DNA of 32,191 bases from Alphaproteobacteria bacterium MarineAlpha9_Bin1 (GCA_002937675.1 PTKJ01000005.1:1-32191), one strand, 5' to 3'. Numbered from the stretch's first letter, positions 19,618 to 32,094 are shown. Notes: generated by a model not told the origin, from the letters alone. Made by a program: numbers and translations.

Positions 19618-21024
19618 TTGGTTTTTATGAATACAAATAATTTAATAAAATTCGTCATCAATTTTAGCTTTATTTTTTTTGTTAATATCAGTCTTGTCAA
19701 TTCTGCCAGTTATGAGTTTATTAAACAGAAAATAATTGAACTAAGAGAAGGGGACCTACAAAAACGAATAGAAACAGTTCAAATTTTGGGTTCTCTTTCT
19801 TCTAATGCTAATTTTGCAATTGCAGAGATGATAAACATTTTAAAAAATGATGAAAATCATGAATTAAGAATGCAAGTTATTAGAGCCTTAGAAAGAATAG
19901 GAGGTCAGGCAAATCTTACTGTTCCCGCCTTAATAGAAGCGCTTTCTGATAAGGACTGGCAGATAAGGTGGTCTGCGGCAGGAGCTTTAGAATCATTTGG
20001 TAAGAAAGCAGCAATGGCTGTTCCGGAACTAGTCATACTTTTACGAGATGATGAAAAATTTGTGAGAAATGCAGCTCTGAGTACTTTAGGGAAAATGGGG
20101 TCCATATCTGTATTGGCAATGATGAACGAAGTAGAAAGACCTTTATCTTACTCAGAAAATCAATTAGAGATAAAAATTATGTGCATAAGATCTTTGGGTG
20201 CATTAGGAGCTAGAGCCGTAATCGCTGTTCCTTTATTAATAAAACAAGCACAAAGTGATAATCCGGTGATCCGTAGGGATGCTCTCTACGCTTTAAGAAG
20301 AGTAGGAAGGGGTACTACTTTTCCAGGGCAAATAAGATGGTTAGCAGATCCCGATGAATTAGTTTGGCCTACCACTAGTACTGAAAATAATTCTAGCTTA
20401 GATATAGATTTTACAGAGGCTAAGAAACAAGTTATGGGAGTAATTATAAAAGCTCATTTAGATGCAATATCCGATCCAGATATGGAAGTTCGTTATGCTG
20501 CAGTAAAGGGATTAGCTGATTTTGGATTAGAATCTATGCCTGCAAAAGATAGGTTAATAATTTTTATGTATGACGAAGATCCATTAATTAGAAGAGTTGC
20601 TATAGATGTGTTTGCTTCGATGGGGCCTGATGCAGTTGATGTAATTCCTGATCTAGTAAGTGCACTAGGTGACTTTGATGTAAATGTTCAGTGGTCTGCA
20701 ATACAAGCTCTTCGTTTAATAGGGAAAGAATCAGTGCCAGAGTTAATTTATATGCTAGAATATGATGAAGAAATTATTACGCCAAATATATTACGTACAT
20801 TTGCTGAGCTGGGGCCATTAGCTTCTGATGCAACAGAAGTTCTTTTGGCAAAACTAAAACATACTAACCCAGAGTACAGAGCATTAGCAGCTGAAGCTTT
20901 AGGTGAAATAAGGAATCCGTCAAAAGAAGTTATTCGTTCTCTTAACTTATTATTAACAGATCCTAATAAAAATGTAATGCAATCTGCAAGTTGGTCGTTA
21001 AAAGAATTAGAAAAAATTAATTAA
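19618..21024 (+). CDS. Exported HEAT-repeat protein
   Basis: N-terminal hydrophobic signal, then repeated HEAT/PBS-lyase-like units (e.g. ALSDKDWQIRWSAAGALESFGKKAAMAVPELVILLRDDEKFVRNAALSTLGKMG). The first in-frame ATG of the ORF may not be the true start. Confidence 0.82.
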   Translation: MVFMNTNNLIKFVINFSFIFFVNISLVNSASYEFIKQKIIELREGDLQKRIETVQILGSLSSNANFAIAEMINILKNDENHELRMQVIRALERIGGQANLTVPALIEALSDKDWQIRWSAAGALESFGKKAAMAVPELVILLRDDEKFVRNAALSTLGKMGSISVLAMMNEVERPLSYSENQLEIKIMCIRSLGALGARAVIAVPLLIKQAQSDNPVIRRDALYALRRVGRGTTFPGQIRWLADPDELVWPTTSTENNSSLDIDFTEAKKQVMGVIIKAHLDAISDPDMEVRYAAVKGLADFGLESMPAKDRLIIFMYDEDPLIRRVAIDVFASMGPDAVDVIPDLVSALGDFDVNVQWSAIQALRLIGKESVPELIYMLEYDEEIITPNILRTFAELGPLASDATEVLLAKLKHTNPEYRALAAEALGEIRNPSKEVIRSLNLLLTDPNKNVMQSASWSLKELEKIN

Positions 21025-21038
21025 AAAAGGATTATAGC

Positions 21039-21728
21039 TTGGGTTATATTTCAAAAAACATAATAATATTTATGCTATTTTTGTTTATTAATAAAAACTT
21101 ATTATCGCAAGAGATAAATGTTGATCTAGAACTTGTTCTTGCAGTTGACGTTTCTTCTAGTGTAGATGAAAAAGAATACCAATTACAAGTAAGAGGAATT
21201 GCTGCTGCTTTTAGACATCCAGATGTGGTTTCTGCTATCCAGGCAAGTGGGGAAAATGGAATTGCAGTTGCGATGGTTCAGTGGTCAGATAATGAGGAAC
21301 AAGCTCTTGTAGGAGGGTGGCATGTAATCAGAGATAGTGCCGATGCAGCTGAATATGCTAGAATTATTAGACGTTCTCCAAGGATTATTCCTGGAGGTCA
21401 AACATCTATTGCTGGGGCCTTGTCTTTTGCAATTGATGAAATAGAAAATAATAATATAAATAGTTCTAGAAGAGTAATTGATGTTTCAGGAGATGGGAGG
21501 TCTAATAATGGAATACATCCAATGTCTATTAGGGATAATGCCATAGATAATAATATTACCATTAATGGATTGGTAATATTAAATGAAGAACCATTTTTGG
21601 GAGGATATTTTGAGAGAAGCGTGATAGGAGGTCATGGAGCTTTTATGATGGTAGCCGAGGATTATCGAGACTATGCCGCTATGATATTGCAAAAACTTCT
21701 TAGAGAAATAGGACTTCCGGTAAGCTAA
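21039..21728 (+). CDS. DUF1194 family (von Willebrand factor A-like) exported protein
   Basis: VDLELVLAVDVSSSVDEKEYQLQVRGIAAAFRHPDV..VAMVQWS, GGQTSIAGALSFAIDEI, VIDVSGDGRSNNG. MIDAS-like DxSxS, T and D are all present. TTG start, 14 bp after the HEAT-repeat gene. Confidence 0.85.
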   Translation: MGYISKNIIIFMLFLFINKNLLSQEINVDLELVLAVDVSSSVDEKEYQLQVRGIAAAFRHPDVVSAIQASGENGIAVAMVQWSDNEEQALVGGWHVIRDSADAAEYARIIRRSPRIIPGGQTSIAGALSFAIDEIENNNINSSRRVIDVSGDGRSNNGIHPMSIRDNAIDNNITINGLVILNEEPFLGGYFERSVIGGHGAFMMVAEDYRDYAAMILQKLLREIGLPVS

Positions 21729-21773: not shown

Positions 21774-22235
21774 TTAAGGATATACCCCATACTCGAATTT
21801 ACTACCTGCCGCTTTTCTGTCTTTATATTCTTGACGTAAATAGGCAATAATTTTCCAAATATTTTCATCGGATATGGTCCTAGAGAAAGCACCCATTTGT
21901 GTTGGCTGGCCATTTACCTGTAACCCTGAAGCTATAACTGAATAAAGATTTATATTAGAACCCCCGCTTTTTTTATAATAACCTCTTGTCAGAGGTGGAC
22001 CTTTTGCTCCTACTCCTCTCATTCCATGACAATAAGAGCAACGTTGATTAAATTTTTCATAGCCTTCTGCTATGGCTTCAGCATTGCCTTCAAACGGGTT
22101 TTCCACATCATCTTCTCCTCCATAGTCTTGGACTTTACCTGCAGATAATGCAGGTGATAAGTAGAAATTGCTAGTAAAGGTTGTTCCTATTATCACAAAA
22201 AAAGTTATAAAAAATATATTTTTAATTAAACCCAT
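21774..22235 (-). CDS. xoxG: Cytochrome c associated with PQQ methanol dehydrogenase (XoxG/cL-like)
   Basis: Signal peptide, CSYCHG haem motif, MRGVGAKGPPLTRGYYKKSGG..GQPTQMGAFSRTISDENIWKIIAYLR. Located downstream of xoxF and xoxJ. Confidence 0.85.
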   Translation of the reverse strand: MGLIKNIFFITFFVIIGTTFTSNFYLSPALSAGKVQDYGGEDDVENPFEGNAEAIAEGYEKFNQRCSYCHGMRGVGAKGPPLTRGYYKKSGGSNINLYSVIASGLQVNGQPTQMGAFSRTISDENIWKIIAYLRQEYKDRKAAGSKFEYGVYP

Positions 22236-22262: not shown

Positions 22263-23138
22263 TTAGTCTTTCGCTGTGTATGAGGAACCAACTTTATCAA
22301 AAGGTTTAAAATAAGGAATATTATACTTTTCAACTATCTCCTGCAGAGTTCCATTTTCGATAAGTATTTTTAAATTTTTATTTATCATGTCTTTGAACTC
22401 TTTGTCTTTAGGCAGCACACCAGCAATATTCCATCTCAATTCTGTAGGTGGCTCAAAAGACTTAATTACTCTAAAAGGAGCATCTTTATATTTTCTTCTA
22501 GCTTTTGCAACTTGAGTAGACATAACAAAGGCTATAGAAATTTCCTGAGTAGCTACACCATCAATTTCTGTAGGTTTTCTAGACCACAAATCACGGTCAT
22601 AGCCATTATAAAAAAAATACCCATCTATTGCCGTGGACATTGCTACACCAGGCTTATATTTCCCTTTAATTTCTTCTATCTTAATAAAATCTGGAACATC
22701 TGGATTTGCTATTGGAATGTAGGCTACTCCCATATAGGGTATAGTATATTCAAGATTTTTCTCTTCGATTTCTTCTTCCATGCTATCACTGGTGGTAATT
22801 CCCATATACAAATGGCAACGTCCTTTGCTTATTGAATGACGAAGAGCTTTTCCTAAACCCCCTCGCATTTTTTGTTCTGCCCAGTAAATATCTAAATACA
22901 AATCTTCATTAGCAGCAATTCTTTCGATAATTTCTATATCAAATCCTCTTGGGTAATTAGCGGAAGAAGTATAAGGCCATGCGTACGGACCTGCACATAA
23001 AATTAACTTGTGTGTTTCCTGTATTTTATCCAATAGTTCTCCAGCGAAAACCCTTTTATAATCCATTGAAAATAATTGTAGTATAAACGCAGTTGCTATA
23101 ACAAAAAGACTAAAAACTCTCATCTTCAATTGCTCCAC
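22263..23138 (-). CDS. xoxJ: XoxJ-like quinoprotein dehydrogenase-associated periplasmic binding protein
   Basis: Periplasmic SBP fold (LILCAGPYAWPYTSSANYPRGFDIEIIERIAANEDLYLDIYWAEQKMRGGLGKALRHSISKGRCHLYMGI) between xoxF and xoxG. Confidence 0.85.
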   Translation of the reverse strand: MEQLKMRVFSLFVIATAFILQLFSMDYKRVFAGELLDKIQETHKLILCAGPYAWPYTSSANYPRGFDIEIIERIAANEDLYLDIYWAEQKMRGGLGKALRHSISKGRCHLYMGITTSDSMEEEIEEKNLEYTIPYMGVAYIPIANPDVPDFIKIEEIKGKYKPGVAMSTAIDGYFFYNGYDRDLWSRKPTEIDGVATQEISIAFVMSTQVAKARRKYKDAPFRVIKSFEPPTELRWNIAGVLPKDKEFKDMINKNLKILIENGTLQEIVEKYNIPYFKPFDKVGSSYTAKD

Positions 23139-23250: not shown

Positions 23251-24978
23251 TTAGTTTAATCCAAAAGTAAATACGCCACCACCTTTGGTGTGTTTTTTAA
23301 GCCATTCGCCATAACTTAGAGGCCATATTCCACCGCCACCAGCACCTACTACGACAGACACTTGTTGTTGTCCATCAACAGTGTAAGTTGTTGGGTTTCC
23401 GTGTACGCCTGTACCTACGTTGAACTGGAATAGTTCTTCACCGGTATCGTCACGTACTGCATGGAAATAACCTTCAGCGTCACCATAAAACACCAATCCA
23501 CCAGCTGTACATAGTGTACCACCAGTAGCTGGAGTGCTATGTGGACGAATCCACATTAGATCACCATTTGATGCGTTAAAGGCTTTAATAGATCCATTAC
23601 CTGAGTTAAAGGTAATAACTTTAGCACCTAGGTACCATTCACCACGGCGCCATTCCATTTTCTTCGCTTGGAGATCCATGGAGAAGTTATATAATGGAAC
23701 AACAGCTGCGTTTACACGTGGAGAATAACACATTGGATGCCATTCTTTACCACCATCAAGTGATGGATAAATATTTTTAGTTACACGATCGTAAACAACA
23801 TCCATTGCTGGATCACCACCTTCTTCCCAAGCCATAATTGGACGACAATTGTCGCGGAATCCAGGTGTCCAATTGATTCTACCCATTGCAACAACCCAGT
23901 TACAACGTGAGTTTGTACGATCAATTGAGTACAAGTGACCATTACGATCACCATGTAACCAAACTTTCTTACCATCAATATCAGCAAGGATAACTTCGTT
24001 TACACCGTCATAGTCATATGGATCGTTTGGTGTATACTGGAACCAACTTACGATAGCACCATCATTAGGATTTAATACTAAAGTTGAGTTTGAGTATAGA
24101 TTGTCACCTAAACGAACGTGACGATCAAAGTCGGGTCCAGGGTTACCGATTGGCCAATAAAGCAAGTCTAAATCTTTATCGTATGAACCAGTTATCCATC
24201 CAGAACCACCACCGTATTTCCAAGACTCTCCAGCCCAGGTGTCTACGTTTGGCTCACCTTCAGCTGGAATTGTGTATGTATTCCATATAACACTTCCATC
24301 TTCAGCTGATAATTTACGTACCCAACCACGAACACCATATTCAGCACCAGCGGTTCCTTGAATTAGGCCGCCATCAAGTGCCATAGGCATAATAGTTGAA
24401 GTTTCCGCGTATGTGTAGTCACCTACAGCTACGTCGAATAGAACTTCACCACTGTGGTTAGCAAGACGTACCAAGTGTGAATCTAGAGTTGCTAAGTATA
24501 CGCTATCTCCATATGGAGTAGCTCCACGGTTAACAACGTCACAGCAAAGTTCTGGATAAACGTCAGCTGGTAGCTCACGCTCATATTTCCATATAATGTC
24601 GCCTGAAGCTGTGTCCACAGAAATCACACGGTTAAATGATGTGGTGACATAACCTTGTCCTCCAACAACATTCAACTGACTGTCTTGACCTTCAAGGGTA
24701 CCAAATGACAGATACCATTTAGCTACTAGATCTCCCGCATTACCTTGGTTGATTTGAGAAGCTTGATGATAACGAGTTGATTGGTAATCTTTACCATAAT
24801 GCAACCAGTTCATTGGATCCTTGTCTGCATTTAAAAGCATGTCATCTGTTACATAGTGAGGTTGCGCACCGCCACCTCCTCTAAGAACATCAACACCCTG
24901 CGCAAAAGCGCCTGATACCATGCTTAGTGTAGCTGCAAATACCACAGCTACGAAGCCATATTTCAATATCTTTGACAT
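23251..24978 (-). CDS. xoxF: Lanthanide-type PQQ-dependent methanol/alcohol dehydrogenase (XoxF)
   Basis: PQQ beta-propeller motifs, adjacent Cys pair (ELCCDVVNRG), catalytic-Asp region DPYDYDGVNE with a second Asp at +2 (the XoxF Ln-coordination signature). Start reset to ATG 24978 (MSKILKYGFVAVVF signal peptide) with GGGAGG upstream. Confidence 0.93.
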   Translation of the reverse strand: MSKILKYGFVAVVFAATLSMVSGAFAQGVDVLRGGGGAQPHYVTDDMLLNADKDPMNWLHYGKDYQSTRYHQASQINQGNAGDLVAKWYLSFGTLEGQDSQLNVVGGQGYVTTSFNRVISVDTASGDIIWKYERELPADVYPELCCDVVNRGATPYGDSVYLATLDSHLVRLANHSGEVLFDVAVGDYTYAETSTIMPMALDGGLIQGTAGAEYGVRGWVRKLSAEDGSVIWNTYTIPAEGEPNVDTWAGESWKYGGGSGWITGSYDKDLDLLYWPIGNPGPDFDRHVRLGDNLYSNSTLVLNPNDGAIVSWFQYTPNDPYDYDGVNEVILADIDGKKVWLHGDRNGHLYSIDRTNSRCNWVVAMGRINWTPGFRDNCRPIMAWEEGGDPAMDVVYDRVTKNIYPSLDGGKEWHPMCYSPRVNAAVVPLYNFSMDLQAKKMEWRRGEWYLGAKVITFNSGNGSIKAFNASNGDLMWIRPHSTPATGGTLCTAGGLVFYGDAEGYFHAVRDDTGEELFQFNVGTGVHGNPTTYTVDGQQQVSVVVGAGGGGIWPLSYGEWLKKHTKGGGVFTFGLN

Positions 24979-25024
24979 ATGGGCATTCCTCCCGTTTTTA
25001 ATTTTTACATAACTTAAAATAAAG

Positions 25025-25078
25025 CTAAGTGTAAAAATAACATTAATGTTATATCGTTCAAGGATGAACGACACTTAG
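25025..25078 (-). promoter_or_regulatory. Nested inverted-repeat element in the xoxF leader (possible three-way-junction RNA or multi-operator site)
   Basis: Outer arms CTAAGTGT (25025-25032) / ACACTTAG (25071-25078) enclose the 14-bp palindrome TAACATTAATGTTA (25038-25051) and the hairpin CGTTCA-AGGA-TGAACG (25055-25070). Confidence 0.55.
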
Positions 25079-25208: not shown

Positions 25209-27413
25209 CTATACATTTAACGAATTTTTAAACACAAGTGGGGGGCATTTTTTATTGTCATAATAGTCTAGTTCGCAATCAAGGCATTGAAAACACTCAT
25301 TCATATTTATTTTTCCTTTGGTATCTATAGCCTGGACAGGACAAGATTTTTCACATAAATGGCAGGGATTTCCACATTCTGGTCTCCTGGGAATCATATT
25401 GAATATATGGAAGCGTCCTAGAAAAGCTAAGGCAGCACCTAGAGGACACATAAAACGACAGAAAAAACGCTCGGAAAAAATTCCGATAAACACAAGTATT
25501 GAAGCATATAAAACGTAAGGTAGGCTTCTATTAAAATATGAAGTAATGGCTGTTTTAAAAGGCTCTATTTCAATTAAACCGTAAGAATAACTACTTCCTA
25601 AAATTGTTGTGCAAGCTATTGCCATAAGAATAATGTATTTTATCACCCATAGTCTTTCATTTAGCCAGTATGGAATATCAATAGTTGGTAATTTAATGAT
25701 TTTTCCTAATTTAAAACACAATTCTTGAAGCACACCAAATGGACATAGCCACCCACAATATACACCTCTTCCTAATAAAATTAGGGAAACTAGTGTATAG
25801 ATAAAAATTATGACCATTAATGGCTCAAATAAAAATTGTGTAAATCCTTTTCCTAAAACTAATGCTTGTGCATAAGATATGATATTAACTATGCTTAGTT
25901 GGGACTGGGCAATCCAGCCTATCCAAGTTAATGTAATAGTCAAAAAACCTAATCTTATATAACTATGGATTTTTCTATTAGAAGAAAGTTTTTTTTGAAA
26001 TCCTAGAATTAAAGTTAATATAATAAGGAGAAAACATAAAAATATTATGGAATAGTCCTGATTTGCCCATTCCGATTGCCATCCATTTAATTTACTTTCT
26101 CTAACAAGTCCCAAAAAAGCAGTTTCAATTTGTCTCAATCCAGCATCTTCTAATGCTACAGGGTCTCCTGTTATTAATTCTTTAGGTAAAACATAATTTA
26201 GAGAAAAAATTCCACTAGCAAAGCTTTCATTAACGGAAAATTCTAACGTCCATTTTTCTAGAGGATTAAATCCCCATTCCTTTGGAATACGCAACAAACC
26301 TATCGATGAAACATTAGGTTTATTTGCTATTCTGAGAGCAGTAGACTGTAATGTTTCATTTTGACTAAATTTAAATACCTTATCTTTTTGAATTAATTGA
26401 ATACGACTGTATTGATTTTTTTTCCATGACCATAAACCTGATCCCATTACGACTAATAAATTGTCGCCAGTTGCTATCTGCGAAACATGATAAGAATACC
26501 ATTTGTCGCCAAAAATATTTCTTCCTACAGATGCTGGATTAGCTAATCCTGCATAAATATTTATAAATTTTTTATCGGGGTCTTTTAAATAATCTTCGTT
26601 TTCCGGGTTTAACTTTTTTCTAATTTCTTTTTTAGTAAAGGTTTTGCCTACTACCCCTCCCCAATTTACTAATGCAGGCCAGTCACGTTCTTTATAGTTA
26701 TCGACATCAAGATAAAATGGTCCTTCATTAGAGGCTAAACCAGTTTGGCGTAAAACTTTTTTTGCAGCGGTAATAATACCATTAGTTGTAAGAGTTGCAC
26801 TAATAGTTGCTCCCGTTACTCCATCATAACCTCTTCCACCGCCAGTACCTGAGTTTAAATTTACTCTTCTATTAATATTAGTACCTACGAATGTTTCGTG
26901 AAGAGCTTCTAGTAATGTTTGAGGTACACAAGTTGGACAAATCATGGGTTCATGAAGTTCTAATATAACGGATCCTGCTAATCTTCCATCTGGCTTTAAT
27001 CCAACAATAATATCAAAATGATCTCCTGAATATCCTTTAGCCTTTGTCGTTTCATAAGTTGAAAATAAGAAACCAATTTCCTTTTGGGTTCCTTTCGTTT
27101 GAAGAGCTGTAATTTTTTCTGCCGTTTCAGCTTCAGTCGGCTCTCGAGCGTAAACTTGTAAAAATTCAATTCTCCATTTGGCAAGTAGTTTTTCATCTAT
27201 AGTTGTTTTTTCTGCAGCAGTACCTAATACTGGAATGTATGGAGGATTTCCTTGAGGGGATCCCAGAGCTTCTGCTTGCGGAAAAATTTTAGCAACAATT
27301 CCAGGGTTTATTCTACTTTGAAGAGGATCGTTCATATCAGCATATGTAACTTTTATTAAAAATATTAAAGATAAAAGAAAAACCCCAAATATTTTTAATA
27401 ACAACTGTTTCAT
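25209..27413 (-). CDS. NosR/NirI-like membrane flavoprotein-polyferredoxin (FMN-binding domain + TM + [4Fe-4S])
   Basis: Flavinylation-type motif YDGVTGATISAT, GVYCGWLCPFG and FFCRFMCPLG (Cx3CP), ferredoxin-like CGNPCHLCEKSCPVQAI and CFQCLDCELDYYDNKKCPP. Confidence 0.88.
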   Translation of the reverse strand: MKQLLLKIFGVFLLSLIFLIKVTYADMNDPLQSRINPGIVAKIFPQAEALGSPQGNPPYIPVLGTAAEKTTIDEKLLAKWRIEFLQVYAREPTEAETAEKITALQTKGTQKEIGFLFSTYETTKAKGYSGDHFDIIVGLKPDGRLAGSVILELHEPMICPTCVPQTLLEALHETFVGTNINRRVNLNSGTGGGRGYDGVTGATISATLTTNGIITAAKKVLRQTGLASNEGPFYLDVDNYKERDWPALVNWGGVVGKTFTKKEIRKKLNPENEDYLKDPDKKFINIYAGLANPASVGRNIFGDKWYSYHVSQIATGDNLLVVMGSGLWSWKKNQYSRIQLIQKDKVFKFSQNETLQSTALRIANKPNVSSIGLLRIPKEWGFNPLEKWTLEFSVNESFASGIFSLNYVLPKELITGDPVALEDAGLRQIETAFLGLVRESKLNGWQSEWANQDYSIIFLCFLLIILTLILGFQKKLSSNRKIHSYIRLGFLTITLTWIGWIAQSQLSIVNIISYAQALVLGKGFTQFLFEPLMVIIFIYTLVSLILLGRGVYCGWLCPFGVLQELCFKLGKIIKLPTIDIPYWLNERLWVIKYIILMAIACTTILGSSYSYGLIEIEPFKTAITSYFNRSLPYVLYASILVFIGIFSERFFCRFMCPLGAALAFLGRFHIFNMIPRRPECGNPCHLCEKSCPVQAIDTKGKINMNECFQCLDCELDYYDNKKCPPLVFKNSLNV

Positions 27414-29446
27414 ATTAAGCTTTTTTCAGAAATAAAGGCATCTCTTATTGAATTCTTTTGTTTTTTATTATTACATTTAATATTTTTATCATTATAAACT
27501 ATCTGACAAGATAAACATTGGATGCATTCTTTTTTATTTATAGAACCATTCTTTGCAATAGCTTTAGTAGGACATTTAGGTAAACATGCATTACATGATT
27601 CGGATCCGCAGGATTTTACTGTGGTTAACCAATTAATAACTTGAAATTGGCTTGCTAATCCTAATGCAGCACCAGTTGGACAAAGATATCTACAAAAACC
27701 TCGTTCAACAAAAACAACAAATGATAGTATTGCAAGTGACCATAAAATAAAAATAATGGATCTATCAAATTTATATTCTATGACTGTTTTAAAAGGTTCA
27801 AATTCAAAAAATATGTTATTCCCTGTTGTATAAATAGCACTCAAAATAATGGAACCTAATATTACATATTTTAAGTATATTAATTTACTATGGACATAGT
27901 TAGGTATTTCAAAACTCTTAAATTTTAAGGCCTTAGAAATTTTATGTATTAAGTCCTGAATTGTTCCAAATGGACACAACCACCCGCAAAAAATACCTCT
28001 TCCCCAAATGGGAGTTGTAATTATTATAAAAGTTCCTAAAATTATATATATAGGTTCAAATAATATGTTATCCCACATACCGTTATCCAGTTTAAAAGTA
28101 TTATACGATTGATAAATTTTTTGCGTTCCTATTTGCAGGCTTTGAAATACACCGAACCAAAGGAATATAATTCCGGTAAGGAAAATTTTAATATATGTTA
28201 TTTTTTTTCTATATTGAGTAAGTTTTCTAGCAAATAAAGTAATTGTTAGAATTCCTAGTAAAAGCAAACTAGTAAAAAATATAGCGTATTTTTGATGTAT
28301 CCATTCTCTCCACCAATCAGGTCCCCATGCATCTATAAAGCCACTCTTATTAGGCATAATTATATTTGTGAGTGTTTTAGCATTAATATTATCAGTTTTG
28401 TTTATTATTTTATTTGTATAAAGGACGTAAGCTGTAACAGCATATGCTTCGTCATTAGTGAGAGATTGTGGTTCAAAGTATGGCATTGCTCTTCGAATGT
28501 AATCAAATAAAGTTGTGGCATAAGGCCAAAAAGACCCAACAGTTCTTACAGGAATTTCTGTATTTAAAGTGCCTAATCCACCAGATAGAGATTCAAAAGC
28601 TATAATTTTTACTGCATTTGATGTTCCTCTAAAGCTCTCGATCTCGCTTGAAAGTACTTCTGCTTTTCCCTGTGTTCCATGACAAGATAGGCACCGTTCT
28701 TGATATACTTTTTCTCCTATTTCAGCTGTGCCATTTCCTTCAGGTAGGTTCTTACTTGTTGGGCTTATTGAAATGTCTTCTGCAATAATTTTTTTCTCTA
28801 TATAGTCCTTACTTAAACTATTATTATACCAATTTATTTTTTCATTTTGTTTGTTTAATAATTTGGATAGTTTAAAAAATAATGAAGAAGTTTTATGATT
28901 TGAAGAATTAATAATAGTATCTTTTTCTGTATTCCAATTAGCAAGGAAAGTATCTTTGGAAGCGGAATTAATATTTAATAAAGATACTTTATCTAATTTT
29001 TCATCAAAATTTAATATATTATTTTTATAAAGTAAGAAGGCTGTTAAAGCATATGTTTCATTACTGGTTAATGTTTGTGGAGTGTTGTAAGGCATAGTCT
29101 TTCTAATATAATCATATAAAGTTTTAGGATAAGGCCAATCTAAGTTAATTGGTACAGAATTAATATTATCCTTTTCTATTATTTTTGTTTGATTAAAAAA
29201 ATCTTTCTCTGAATGGCATGACACACATTTATTTATAAAAATTTTTTCACCTACTTCAGCGTTGCCTGCGCCATCAGGTAAGTTTGACCCCACAGCATCT
29301 ATAGTAATATCTAATTTTGAAATTATATTCTGGCCAATATTTTTACCAAAATTAAAATCTACATGTTCTTCTGCTTGTACTGCTGATATAAAAAATAAGT
29401 TAGTAAAAATTATTAAAAAAGTTAGGTATTTTTCAAACATATTCAT
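27410..29446 (-). CDS. Fusion: tandem SoxD-like cytochrome c domains + NosR-type membrane polyferredoxin
   Basis: Two similar haem domains (NLPDGAGNAEVGEKIFINKCVSCHS..WPYPKTLYDYIRKTMPY and NLPEGNGTAEIGEKVYQERCLSCHG..WPYATTLFDYIRRAMPY), then TMs, RGIFCGWLCPFG, GFCRYLCPTG, CGSESCNACLPKCPTKAI, CIQCLSC. ATGA overlap with the downstream NosR-like gene. Confidence 0.85.
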   Translation of the reverse strand: MNMFEKYLTFLIIFTNLFFISAVQAEEHVDFNFGKNIGQNIISKLDITIDAVGSNLPDGAGNAEVGEKIFINKCVSCHSEKDFFNQTKIIEKDNINSVPINLDWPYPKTLYDYIRKTMPYNTPQTLTSNETYALTAFLLYKNNILNFDEKLDKVSLLNINSASKDTFLANWNTEKDTIINSSNHKTSSLFFKLSKLLNKQNEKINWYNNSLSKDYIEKKIIAEDISISPTSKNLPEGNGTAEIGEKVYQERCLSCHGTQGKAEVLSSEIESFRGTSNAVKIIAFESLSGGLGTLNTEIPVRTVGSFWPYATTLFDYIRRAMPYFEPQSLTNDEAYAVTAYVLYTNKIINKTDNINAKTLTNIIMPNKSGFIDAWGPDWWREWIHQKYAIFFTSLLLLGILTITLFARKLTQYRKKITYIKIFLTGIIFLWFGVFQSLQIGTQKIYQSYNTFKLDNGMWDNILFEPIYIILGTFIIITTPIWGRGIFCGWLCPFGTIQDLIHKISKALKFKSFEIPNYVHSKLIYLKYVILGSIILSAIYTTGNNIFFEFEPFKTVIEYKFDRSIIFILWSLAILSFVVFVERGFCRYLCPTGAALGLASQFQVINWLTTVKSCGSESCNACLPKCPTKAIAKNGSINKKECIQCLSCQIVYNDKNIKCNNKKQKNSIRDAFISEKSLI

Positions 29447-29496
29447 TTAATATTCTATCTTTTGGAGTTATCCTTCAAGTCTCTATGAAATTATTA

Positions 29497-30819
29497 TTAT
29501 TTCTCAGACCAAGTAGAACTTTGAGCAACATCATCATACTCATTTAATATTTTGCCTTTAGCAGTTATTCTCCAAATCTGTATAGAATTGTTATGATATA
29601 AATGTCCTAAACCATATTTTACAGACCAAATAGACCTTTGAGGTTGTGTATTACTCTTACTATCTGTCGCTCTACTTTGTAGTGAGCATTCTTCCCCATT
29701 CCACATCCAGTTATAGCGAAATCTGACCGGAGATAAAGGCTGGTTACTTCCCTCTATTTTTGCAATATTCCAAGTTTTGCCTTTATCGGTAGAAACCTCC
29801 ACTTTTTTAATATTTCCAAGACCTGACCATGCAAGACCCGTAATATGAACAGGTCCTTTCTTTAGGGGAACTGGACCGGCTGTTGGATGAGTAATTACTG
29901 ATTTTACTTCCATCGGAAAGGTAAATTGCAATGTTTTTCCGTTCGTTAGTAAGTCACTATATTTAGAAGTTTCATCTTTAGTATATGTAGGTTTTTTTGT
30001 TACCTTTATTCTTCTTAGCCACTTAATACTTATGTTTCCTTCCCACCCAGGAACAACTAGTCTCATAGGGTATCCTTGCTCAGGTCTTATGCGTTCACCA
30101 TTCTGGTATAATGCTATTAGCGTATCATCTAGTGCTTTTTCCAAAGGTATACTTCGACTCATAGCAGAAGCGTCGGATCCCTCAGCAAGTATCCATTTTG
30201 CCTCTTTCTTTATACCTACTTCGTTTAAAATTATTTTTAGAGGAATACCCGTCCATTCAGAGGTTGACATAAGTCCATGAATTGTTCCGCAGGTTCTATC
30301 TATAGCTATAGGAAAAGCGTTAGAATTATAAAAACTATTTCCAGCACATTCTATAAAATAAGTTTTAGTTTTCATTGGATATTTTAAAAGATCTTCCGTT
30401 TTAAATACTAATGGTCTTTCAACAAGTCCATGAATGAGTAATTCGTGTTGTAACGGGTCTATAGCTGGAATTCCATTATGACTTCTTTCAAAATGCAACC
30501 CATTGGGAGTTATGATTCCTTCAAGCTTTTCTAAGGGAGTCATAGACGCTCCTGTCCCTGGTGCATATTCTTTATATGGCTGAAATATTTTTCGTTTTGT
30601 GTTTACTTCCTGTTGTGCAGGGACCCCGTATTCACTGAAAGTTTTACCAGGAGTAGTCATCCAGGAAGGAGACCCCTCTTTTATAGATTCTGCATTTATA
30701 GAAGCTGGTATAAGACTAGCTGCGGAAGAGAATAATAAAGTTCTCCTGGAGATTTCTATTTTGTTTTTAAAAAAAAAATTACTCTGCTGCTTTTTCATCT
30801 TTTTCATGAAGCTTTCCAT
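29497..30819 (-). CDS. soxC: SoxC-like molybdopterin sulfite dehydrogenase subunit (Tat-exported)
   Basis: Twin-arginine SRRTLLFSSAASL, Mo-cofactor Cys in YFIECAGNS, WTGIPLKIIL, EGSDASAMSRSIPLEKALDDTLIALYQNGERIRPEQGYPMRLVVPGWEGNISIKWLRRI, C-terminal dimerisation domain. Exact start uncertain (30819, 30807 or 30798). Confidence 0.9.
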   Translation of the reverse strand: MESFMKKMKKQQSNFFFKNKIEISRRTLLFSSAASLIPASINAESIKEGSPSWMTTPGKTFSEYGVPAQQEVNTKRKIFQPYKEYAPGTGASMTPLEKLEGIITPNGLHFERSHNGIPAIDPLQHELLIHGLVERPLVFKTEDLLKYPMKTKTYFIECAGNSFYNSNAFPIAIDRTCGTIHGLMSTSEWTGIPLKIILNEVGIKKEAKWILAEGSDASAMSRSIPLEKALDDTLIALYQNGERIRPEQGYPMRLVVPGWEGNISIKWLRRIKVTKKPTYTKDETSKYSDLLTNGKTLQFTFPMEVKSVITHPTAGPVPLKKGPVHITGLAWSGLGNIKKVEVSTDKGKTWNIAKIEGSNQPLSPVRFRYNWMWNGEECSLQSRATDSKSNTQPQRSIWSVKYGLGHLYHNNSIQIWRITAKGKILNEYDDVAQSSTWSEK

Positions 30820-31267
30820 ATATTACATATCGGAGAATGGCAACAACTTCTTCTACCGATCTGCATGTAGCAAGTGATGCCTGATCTATCTCCTTTAGAG
30901 CATGGTCGAGATTGTAGTCGTGCAAAGTAATTACGGCTTTTCCTTGTGCGGCGGCTAACCCAACATCAAATGCAGCATTCCATTGTTTATATTGATCTCC
31001 AAACTTTACAATTAAAATGTCTGTTTCCTTTAATAATATGCTATTTCTAATAGAATTTATAGCCGCACCTTTTCTGTCATGCCAAAACTTATTTGATTCA
31101 TTTCCTAAAATCGTTACACCACAATCATCTGAATTTGAATGGTTTGTATTTGGTGAATTTATAATTACAGGCAGTTCATCGTGTTTACATAATTTTTTTA
31201 TTTCTTCTCTCCAGTTAGTATGAATTTCTCCCGACAGATAGATTTTCCATATCCTATCTTTAGACAT
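30779..31267 (-). CDS. ytoQ: YtoQ family protein
   Basis: WKIYLSGEIHTNWREEI..ADILIVKFGDQYKQWNAAFDVGLAAAQGKAVITLHDYNLDHALKEIDQASLATCRSVEEVVAILRYVI. Start reset to ATG 31267 (MSKDRIWK). Confidence 0.85.
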   Translation of the reverse strand: MSKDRIWKIYLSGEIHTNWREEIKKLCKHDELPVIINSPNTNHSNSDDCGVTILGNESNKFWHDRKGAAINSIRNSILLKETDILIVKFGDQYKQWNAAFDVGLAAAQGKAVITLHDYNLDHALKEIDQASLATCRSVEEVVAILRYVIYGKLHEKDEKAAE

Positions 31268-31287
31268 ATTTTTCTCCTTATTATAAA

Positions 31288-32094
31288 TTAATTTAAATGA
31301 CTCCCAAATTTTGCATAAAGTTTTCTCATACCTCCTAGCCACCTTGGGTAATTGCTGGTTTTAAGTTTTATATATTCTCCTACTTGAGGGTGGGGAAGTA
31401 TTAAAAATTCTCCCTTAGAGACTGCATCCAAAGTGATCGAAGCGACCTCATTTGCTTCTAACATCCCATCTATTCCTGCTACATTTCCATCTTTCATGTT
31501 GGCCGTCATAGCAGTCTTAACTCCTTGAGGACATAAACATGATATACGCACTGCATTTCCATTATCATCATCTTTTCCATACACTATGGATAAATATTCT
31601 GCAAAACCAACGGCCGCATGTTTGGTAAGAGAATAAGAAGCAGAGTTGATTTCAGAAAGTAATCCTGCCGCAGAGGCAGTGGTTACAAAACGACAATCTT
31701 TTCTTTTACGCATTTTAGGAATTACAGTTTTTGCTGCCCATACGTGATGCCATGTATTGACATTCATTGACAAATCCCAATCTGCATCACTAGTAGAAGA
31801 TAGGTCACCTAAGCATGCTACACCAGCATTCGCAAAAAAGGCGTCAATACCTCCAAGATTGTCCTCTGTCTCGGAGACAAATTTTACTATTTCACTTTCT
31901 TTTCCAACATCACAATTATTTGTTAGGAAGCCATGCTCATTTGAAACGCTATTTAAATCATTTTCGTTGATATCACATACGGATATTTTTGCTCCTCTGG
32001 TTTGGGCTTCTAATGCAATAGCTTTTCCAATTCCTCTGCTTCCTCCCGTAATAGCAACAACTTTATTTTCCCAGTTGAAAGAATTGGTTTCCAT
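31288..32094 (-). CDS. Short-chain dehydrogenase/reductase
   Basis: VAITGGSRGIGKAIALEA, FFANAGVACLG, catalytic Ser/YxxxK in TTASAAGLLSEINSASYSLTKHAAVGFAE. Confidence 0.9.
   Translation of the reverse strand: METNSFNWENKVVAITGGSRGIGKAIALEAQTRGAKISVCDINENDLNSVSNEHGFLTNNCDVGKESEIVKFVSETEDNLGGIDAFFANAGVACLGDLSSTSDADWDLSMNVNTWHHVWAAKTVIPKMRKRKDCRFVTTASAAGLLSEINSASYSLTKHAAVGFAEYLSIVYGKDDDNGNAVRISCLCPQGVKTAMTANMKDGNVAGIDGMLEANEVASITLDAVSKGEFLILPHPQVGEYIKLKTSNYPRWLGGMRKLYAKFGSHLN

Follow-up and report, generated by a model that had tools for sequence, protein, structure and literature searches.

Gene Organisation of the Locus

The window, a stretch of 32,191 nucleotides from Alphaproteobacteria bacterium MarineAlpha9_Bin1 (PTKJ01000005.1:1-32191), carries on its minus strand a gene cassette in the order SoxC-like molybdenum dehydrogenase, haem–NosR fusion protein, FMN-type NosR, PQQ alcohol dehydrogenase, XoxJ-like protein and small cytochrome. 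The same order was found in three g5 and seven g8 genomes. The FMN-type NosR gene (25209–27413) overlaps the fusion gene (27410–29446) by 4 bp. Upstream of the SoxC-like gene, also on the minus strand, lie genes for a YtoQ-family protein (30779–31342; TIGR03646, 195/155 bits), kept as a neighbour in g5, and an SDR-family oxidoreductase (31288–32094; domain match and synteny), kept in both g5 and g8. A tandem pair encoding HEAT-repeat and DUF1194/VWA proteins (19618–21728, plus strand; domains and synteny) is convergent with the cassette and is likewise kept beside it. No nosZ was present among the identified genes of the window. The first-pass annotation had described a Tat-type SoxC-like ORF followed by a 678-aa ORF; this pair stands, both ORFs exactly where they had been placed, whereas the FMN-type NosR at 25209–27413 and the PQQ cassette had been missed.

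The SoxC-Like Molybdoenzyme

The SoxC-like gene (29497–30819, minus strand) encodes a 440-aa molybdenum dehydrogenase of the sulfite-oxidase fold with Oxidored_molyb and Mo-co_dimer domains and a Tat-type N-terminus (SRRTLLF). The protein scored 519 bits with the NCBIfam SoxC model TIGR04555 (cut-off 420), and its closest PDB entry was 2xts_A of Paracoccus SoxCD (334 bits). The MsrP model gave 30 bits; the SorA model reached 133 bits (cut-off 600) and the SorT model 120 bits (cut-off 570). In the alphaproteobacterial family that holds TMED109, the only SoxC above the cut-off was the fusion-linked one. Its gene directly precedes a related class I cytochrome domain, as in the monohaem SoxC-like dehydrogenases.

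In the SoxC tree (67 rows), the fusion-linked SoxCs formed a single clade (100/100), which joined the SoxCs of f129 and L069 in a clade (99/96) nested within the enzymes with monohaem partners. The SoxCs of sox clusters and those with dihaem partners formed a separate clade of 12 rows (100/99). The Mo-Cys motif and the loop that follows it also differed, reading ECAGNSFYNSNAFP in the window, whereas the classical SoxCs compared have EC(A/P/G)AN(G/S/T)G(M/L)(E/N)W. Given this position outside the classical clade and the altered loop, the name SoxC denotes a family resemblance, and the classical function should not be assumed; the earlier reading of the enzyme as SoxC in the strict sense is not borne out.

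The Haem–NosR Fusion Protein

The fusion gene (27410–29446, minus strand) encodes one polypeptide of 678 aa, in which a Sec-type signal peptide and two c-haem domains are followed by five further helices and Fe-S motifs. Pfam returned Fer4_5 twice together with cytochrome c domains, and NCBIfam placed the C-terminal half of NosR at residues 376–660. All the following parts are encoded on the minus strand. The first haem domain (28997–29284) was located by alignment and motif census and has its CxxCH motif at residue 74 (CVSCH). The second (28334–28816) has the motif at residue 252 (CLSCH), and residues 211–371 matched the SoxD chain of 2xts (2xts_B; E 1.5e-24). The five-helix membrane module (27677–28285), recognised by Fer4_5, hydropathy and the positive-inside count, carries CGWLCP at residue 487 and CRYLCP at residue 585. 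The C-terminal ferredoxin-like region (27473–27610) contains eight Cys (613/618/621/625 and 641/644/647/658), corresponding to two predicted [4Fe-4S] clusters. The distribution of positive charges fits a haem-bearing half in the periplasm and a ferredoxin tail in the cytoplasm, with the CX3CP motifs predicted on the cytoplasmic side. The periplasmic FMN domain with its flavinylation motif is absent, and c-haem stands in its place.

The second haem domain was invariant in the alignment across every fusion covering that region. It is likely the ancestral one, with Met321 in RRAMP as the likely axial ligand. The ORF, Pfam, NCBIfam and the motif census agree with the first-pass annotation that two haem domains are joined in one chain to a NosR-type module. 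The SoxD ancestry that it had assigned to the haem half was dropped after the SoxC tree and a comparison of the partners at SoxC-like loci; the domain is of the monohaem partner type of SoxC-like enzymes, and most relatives are monohaem.

The FMN-Type NosR and the PQQ Dehydrogenase Cassette

The adjoining NosR-like gene (25209–27413, minus strand) encodes a full-length flavoprotein of 734 aa with the flavinylation motif DGVTGAT at residues 197–203 (nt 26805–26825). Like the fusion, it has two CX3CP motifs and C-terminal ligands for 2x[4Fe-4S]. With the NosR equivalog model NF046105 (cut-off 1000), it scored 499 bits and the fusion 218 bits. No solved structure resembling it was found by sequence. 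In g8, the fusion and the FMN-type NosR form one ORF of 1,164–1,262 aa as called, although some of the called starts may make the protein too long. Along this single chain, haem and an Fe-S module are followed by an FMN-type domain and then by another Fe-S module. The AlphaFold mean pLDDT of 41 for the fusion and 40 for this giant chain was too low to judge packing.

The PQQ alcohol dehydrogenase (23251–25074, minus strand; 607 aa) scored 489.8 bits with TIGR03075 (cut-off 480). Its best PDB match was PedH (6zcv), with XoxF (6oc5) among the next, and alignment to PedH located the lanthanide-type Asp-x-Asp signature TPNDPYDYDGVNE, here Asp-Tyr-Asp. From these matches, the enzyme is XoxF/PedH-like. 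Since its identity to plasmid-borne relatives was only 33%–37% among the matches listed, it was neither placed in a named XoxF clade (XoxF1–5) nor given methanol as its substrate. The next genes on the same strand encode a XoxJ/MoxJ-like periplasmic binding protein (22263–23138), whose match to TIGR03871 was weak (33/212 bits) and whose position is conserved, and a small c-type cytochrome resembling XoxG/PedF by domain and profile matches (21774–22235), also at a conserved position. Among 29 genomes of the family, a PQQ orthologue (at least 76% identity) and the fusion or its SoxC were both present in 13 and both missing from 15; the fusion never occurred without the orthologue, and the orthologue occurred alone once, at a contig edge (Fisher p 2e-7, relatedness and genome incompleteness being ignored).

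Distribution of the Fusion and Changes in Its Cofactor Sites

The fusion was intact in the three g5 and seven g8 genomes of the TMED109-holding family, which stem from separate projects. Its identity between genera was 37%–62%, with the haem and most Fe-S ligands kept. TMED109 is a deep-branching alphaproteobacterial order (PMC12542740; PMC8879329). No full-span match was found outside the family in 395 alphaproteobacterial genomes, nor among the very strong matches in 399 genomes of the phylum. A contig pattern scan of GTDB r220 returned nine fusions among the best 80 matches, all in this family; in nearly all of the other 71, the gene after the SoxC-like one encodes a small cytochrome as a protein of its own, and no NosR lay near the SoxC–cytochrome pair in those 71 loci. 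The membrane-module tree also indicated a single origin of the fusion module (98/95). On this comparison of sequences, independent assemblies share a fusion of single origin, and an assembly artefact is ruled out. The carriers are uncultured marine and sponge-associated, apparently host-associated, Alphaproteobacteria.

The fusions of G013, G017 and G024 (g5) and all those of g8 have one haem, and the core of the first domain is absent. The first haem region also aligned with the partial N-terminus in G021 (partial contig). Judged from the alignment, the extra haem is lineage-specific; in the three g5 genomes, its absence looks like loss because the region after the first haem still aligns. 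In these three, the ferredoxin tail is also without Cys 1–3 of motif 1 and the final Cys of motif 2, which we take, from the standard 2[4Fe-4S] pattern, to be the ligands of one cluster. The other four ligands are kept there, and all eight are kept in the window, G027 and g8. Absence of the haem and of the cluster coincides in this one lineage. The loss of one cluster in three relatives indicates that a two-cluster chain is not indispensable.

Unfused counterparts were found in f129, another alphaproteobacterial family, where a NosR gene lies directly before SoxC in five genomes (G156, G261, G780, G782 and G783) and in a fragment (G781). The f129 SoxC shares 57%–59% identity with that of the window and is followed by a monohaem cytochrome wherever the contig reaches that far. 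A second NosR lies upstream in G156, G261 and G780, with a partial one in G781. In the alignment, the flavin acceptor motif was lost from all six SoxC-adjacent NosRs and kept in all three complete upstream ones. Loss of the flavin site next to SoxC suggests that haem replaces flavin. The membrane-module tree, in which long branches meet at this point, did not demonstrate that the fusion module is the orthologue of the flavin-less f129 NosR. In G271, SoxC (40%), a cytochrome, a 193-aa ORF, NosR and ApbE occur in one run. The recurrence of the same partners unfused in f129 agrees with the original proposal of a genetic link between a SoxC-like enzyme and a NosR-type membrane module.

Sox Genes and Sulfite Enzymes Elsewhere in the Genome

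Another contig of the window's genome (G000:C29) carries soxX, a soxY-like gene, soxZ and soxA. The first-pass annotation had set the enzyme outside the thiosulfate cycle because the window holds no soxXAYZB; this argument is not supported as it stood, soxXYZA being present on that contig, although SoxB was not found in any of the 29 family genomes searched. SoxY-family matches occurred in 26 of the 29, some being quinoprotein-associated SoxYZ fusions, and roughly half of the family carries SoxY-type genes but no SoxC. The SoxY of the window's genome ends in GACS and lies below the cut-off for true SoxY. With queries from the window's genome, no soxXYZA was found near the SoxC–cytochrome pair in 80 loci (flanks up to 10 kb). 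The genome also encodes a separate SorA-like sulfite dehydrogenase; thus, sulfite oxidation need not fall to the SoxC–fusion unit.

Proposed Electron Route and Alternative Explanations

We tentatively propose, at somewhat less than an even chance, that the products of the cassette make up a respiratory dehydrogenase anchored in the membrane on the periplasmic side, whose electrons pass through haem and Fe-S centres into the membrane, probably to quinone. The Tat-exported SoxC-like enzyme would oxidise a small substrate of the sulfur oxyanion type, perhaps sulfite or a close analogue, and pass electrons to the c-haem domain, as the adjacency of the genes suggests; the two proteins may form a complex. 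The sequence shows this haem to be held covalently within the NosR-type module, where it stands in place of the periplasmic flavin domain, and electrons could continue through the CX3CP helices and the [4Fe-4S] clusters on the cytoplasmic side to the quinone pool. The FMN-type NosR may serve as the corresponding point of entry, with the co-inherited lanthanide-type PQQ alcohol dehydrogenase as its probable donor, in which case two periplasmic dehydrogenases would feed one membrane hub. The proposal is supported by the conservation and single origin of the fusion, the joined chain of g8, the arrangements in f129 and G271, the co-occurrence with the PQQ orthologue, the selective loss of the ligands of a single cluster in three relatives and the consistent topology; the dispensability of one cluster and the presence of a SorA-like enzyme speak against it. 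We favour the oxidative direction since the SoxC-like and PQQ enzymes, both periplasmic, come from families of dehydrogenases. In one study, a flavinylated NapH-like protein is predicted to pair with the PQQ alcohol dehydrogenase ExaA in the same direction (PMC8238504), whereas NosR, NapH and RdhC are thought to move electrons the opposite way, from quinol to periplasmic reductases (PMC5928378). A more specific version, which we consider rather unlikely, is that both enzymes feed a single hub of Mo, c-haem, [4Fe-4S], FMN and a second [4Fe-4S], possibly as energy-coupled branches in which donors of very different potential are joined before quinone. The last four of these cofactor sites lie on one chain in g8; against a shared hub, the PQQ dehydrogenase is accompanied by a cytochrome of its own and could do without NosR.

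The outward flow proposed for NosR, NapH and RdhC (PMC5928378) could also apply here, with the haem–NosR protein drawing quinol or cytoplasmic electrons for a SoxC-like enzyme working as a periplasmic reductase, comparable to MsrP, a member of the same superfamily that acts on sulfoxides. The altered Mo-Cys loop may indeed signal a new substrate. However, the sequence sides with SoxC (519 bits with TIGR04555) rather than MsrP (30 bits), the adjoining PQQ enzyme is a dehydrogenase, and elsewhere the monohaem cytochromes paired with SoxC are encoded separately with no NosR close by, so that we regard this reversal as unlikely. A modified Sox system, in which the enzyme would be a sulfane dehydrogenase acting on SoxYZ-bound sulfur with soxXYZA and sending its electrons to the membrane, gains from the soxXYZA genes on G000:C29, the wide occurrence of SoxY-family matches across the family and the lack of any other SoxC above the cut-off among its members. 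It is nevertheless distinctly unlikely given the negative search for SoxB in 29 genomes, the GACS ending and low score of SoxY, the placement of SoxC outside the classical clade and the many SoxY-type genes without SoxC; classical Sox function was demoted after the SoxB result and the SoxC tree and is kept as a rival.

Still less probable is an accessory role, in which the haem–NosR protein would maintain a periplasmic metalloenzyme, either SoxC or the PQQ dehydrogenase, correctly assembled or in its proper redox state, as in one role proposed for NosR towards NosZ. NosR has been tied to both NosZ activation and electron delivery (PMC5928378), and three relatives lack one of the Fe-S clusters; the covalent linkage of the presumed acceptor haem to the module, however, argues for electron flow in turnover. 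That the fusion is a functionless product of chance or misassembly might be suspected from a single window of a metagenome-derived draft genome, but the independent assemblies and the ligands kept at 37%–62% identity between genera refute it, and its probability is negligible.

If the proposed respiratory dehydrogenase operates, the covalent haem–NosR link would provide a direct membrane route for SoxC-type periplasmic oxidation and show that haem and flavin can substitute for each other at the front of the NosR module. The fusion could also help to tell the direction of electrons through NosR-type proteins because a dehydrogenase, not a reductase, lies at its periplasmic end. As the carriers are uncultured marine Alphaproteobacteria, the cassette potentially bears on sulfur and alcohol turnover in the ocean.

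Comparison With Known Systems

SoxC-type enzymes are understood to pass electrons to soluble cytochromes. Paracoccus SoxCD (2xts) provides the closest solved relatives of both the catalytic subunit and the haem domain, and shares the order of SoxC followed by its haem partner. However, SoxD is soluble, dihaem and encoded in soxXYZABCD clusters, whereas the haem in the window is membrane-anchored, and the window SoxC falls outside the classical clade with another Mo-Cys loop. The monohaem SoxC-like dehydrogenases, such as those of Methylosinus (pOB3b1), Bradyrhizobium and Burkholderia, share the enzyme group and the haem domain (about 41%–55% identity), but their cytochrome is a separate small protein. 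The sulfite dehydrogenases SoeABC and SorAB/SorT share the proposed reaction type. SoeABC, which faces the cytoplasm and belongs to a different enzyme family, feeds the membrane as well, and the SorA and SorT models score the window enzyme far below their cut-offs.

On the membrane side, NosR of nitrous oxide respiration shares the membrane module, the CX3CP motifs and the C-terminal ferredoxin; unlike NosR, the fusion has c-haem instead of an FMN domain, and both the fusion and its partner score far under the equivalog cut-off. In keyword searches of the literature, with most subscription papers and all preprints outside their scope, no paper joining NosR and SoxC was found, and a paper on TMED109 and xoxF mentions neither NosR nor SoxC (PMC12542740). 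The NapH-like protein and ExaA, as described in the passage devoted to them (PMC8238504), resemble the products of 25209–27413 and 23251–25074 in that a PQQ alcohol dehydrogenase has a flavoprotein of the NosR/NapH type as its neighbour; relative to that description, the molybdoenzyme and the haem–NosR fusion belong to the window system only. The fusion cassette is a new combination of modules that are known throughout, and the position of the fusion beside a rare-earth-type alcohol dehydrogenase suggests an undescribed route by which electrons originating outside the cell membrane enter respiration.

In the genome carrying the window, a soxX-soxY-soxZ-soxA operon was located at L175 (contig C29, 6137-8400). 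The operon also occurred at L177, L179, L180 and L182. Despite this operon, no soxB was found in the 29 genomes of the family. The SoxY it encodes scored below the cut-off for true SoxY and ended at its C-terminus in GACS, not GGCGG. Contig C94 of the window's genome encoded a SoxYZ-like fusion of the quinoprotein-dehydrogenase-associated type (L176, 10350-11255), which scored 131.6 bits against a cut-off of 140 and lay away from the window's PQQ dehydrogenase. The same genome contained a SorA-like sulfite dehydrogenase (L200, contig C56, 1315-2535), which might provide a second route for sulfite.

In family f129, another alphaproteobacterial family, a PQQ dehydrogenase (L297, G781:C235, 1390-3216; 33% to that of the window) was convergent with and adjoined a SoxC-cytochrome c. 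This arrangement offers an independent hint of a link between SoxC and PQQ dehydrogenases. At L254 (G715:C2), a SoxC match lay within a 1002-aa open frame, possibly representing another SoxC fusion or merely a long frame.

A 1.4-Mb genome encoded four more full-length NosR-like proteins (L001, L002, L004 and L006), and those of L001 and L004 had non-canonical flavin motifs. An ApbE-like gene adjoined the L001 protein. In the C-terminal half of the giant chain of genus g8 (L047, L048 and L051), the flavinylation motif was DGVRGAT, with Arg at the position usually occupied by Ser or Thr and the acceptor Thr retained.

Genes for a HEAT-repeat protein and a DUF1194/VWA protein (window 19618-21728) accompanied the PQQ cassette in relatives whose contigs extended that far; methanol dehydrogenase clusters also contain VWA proteins.
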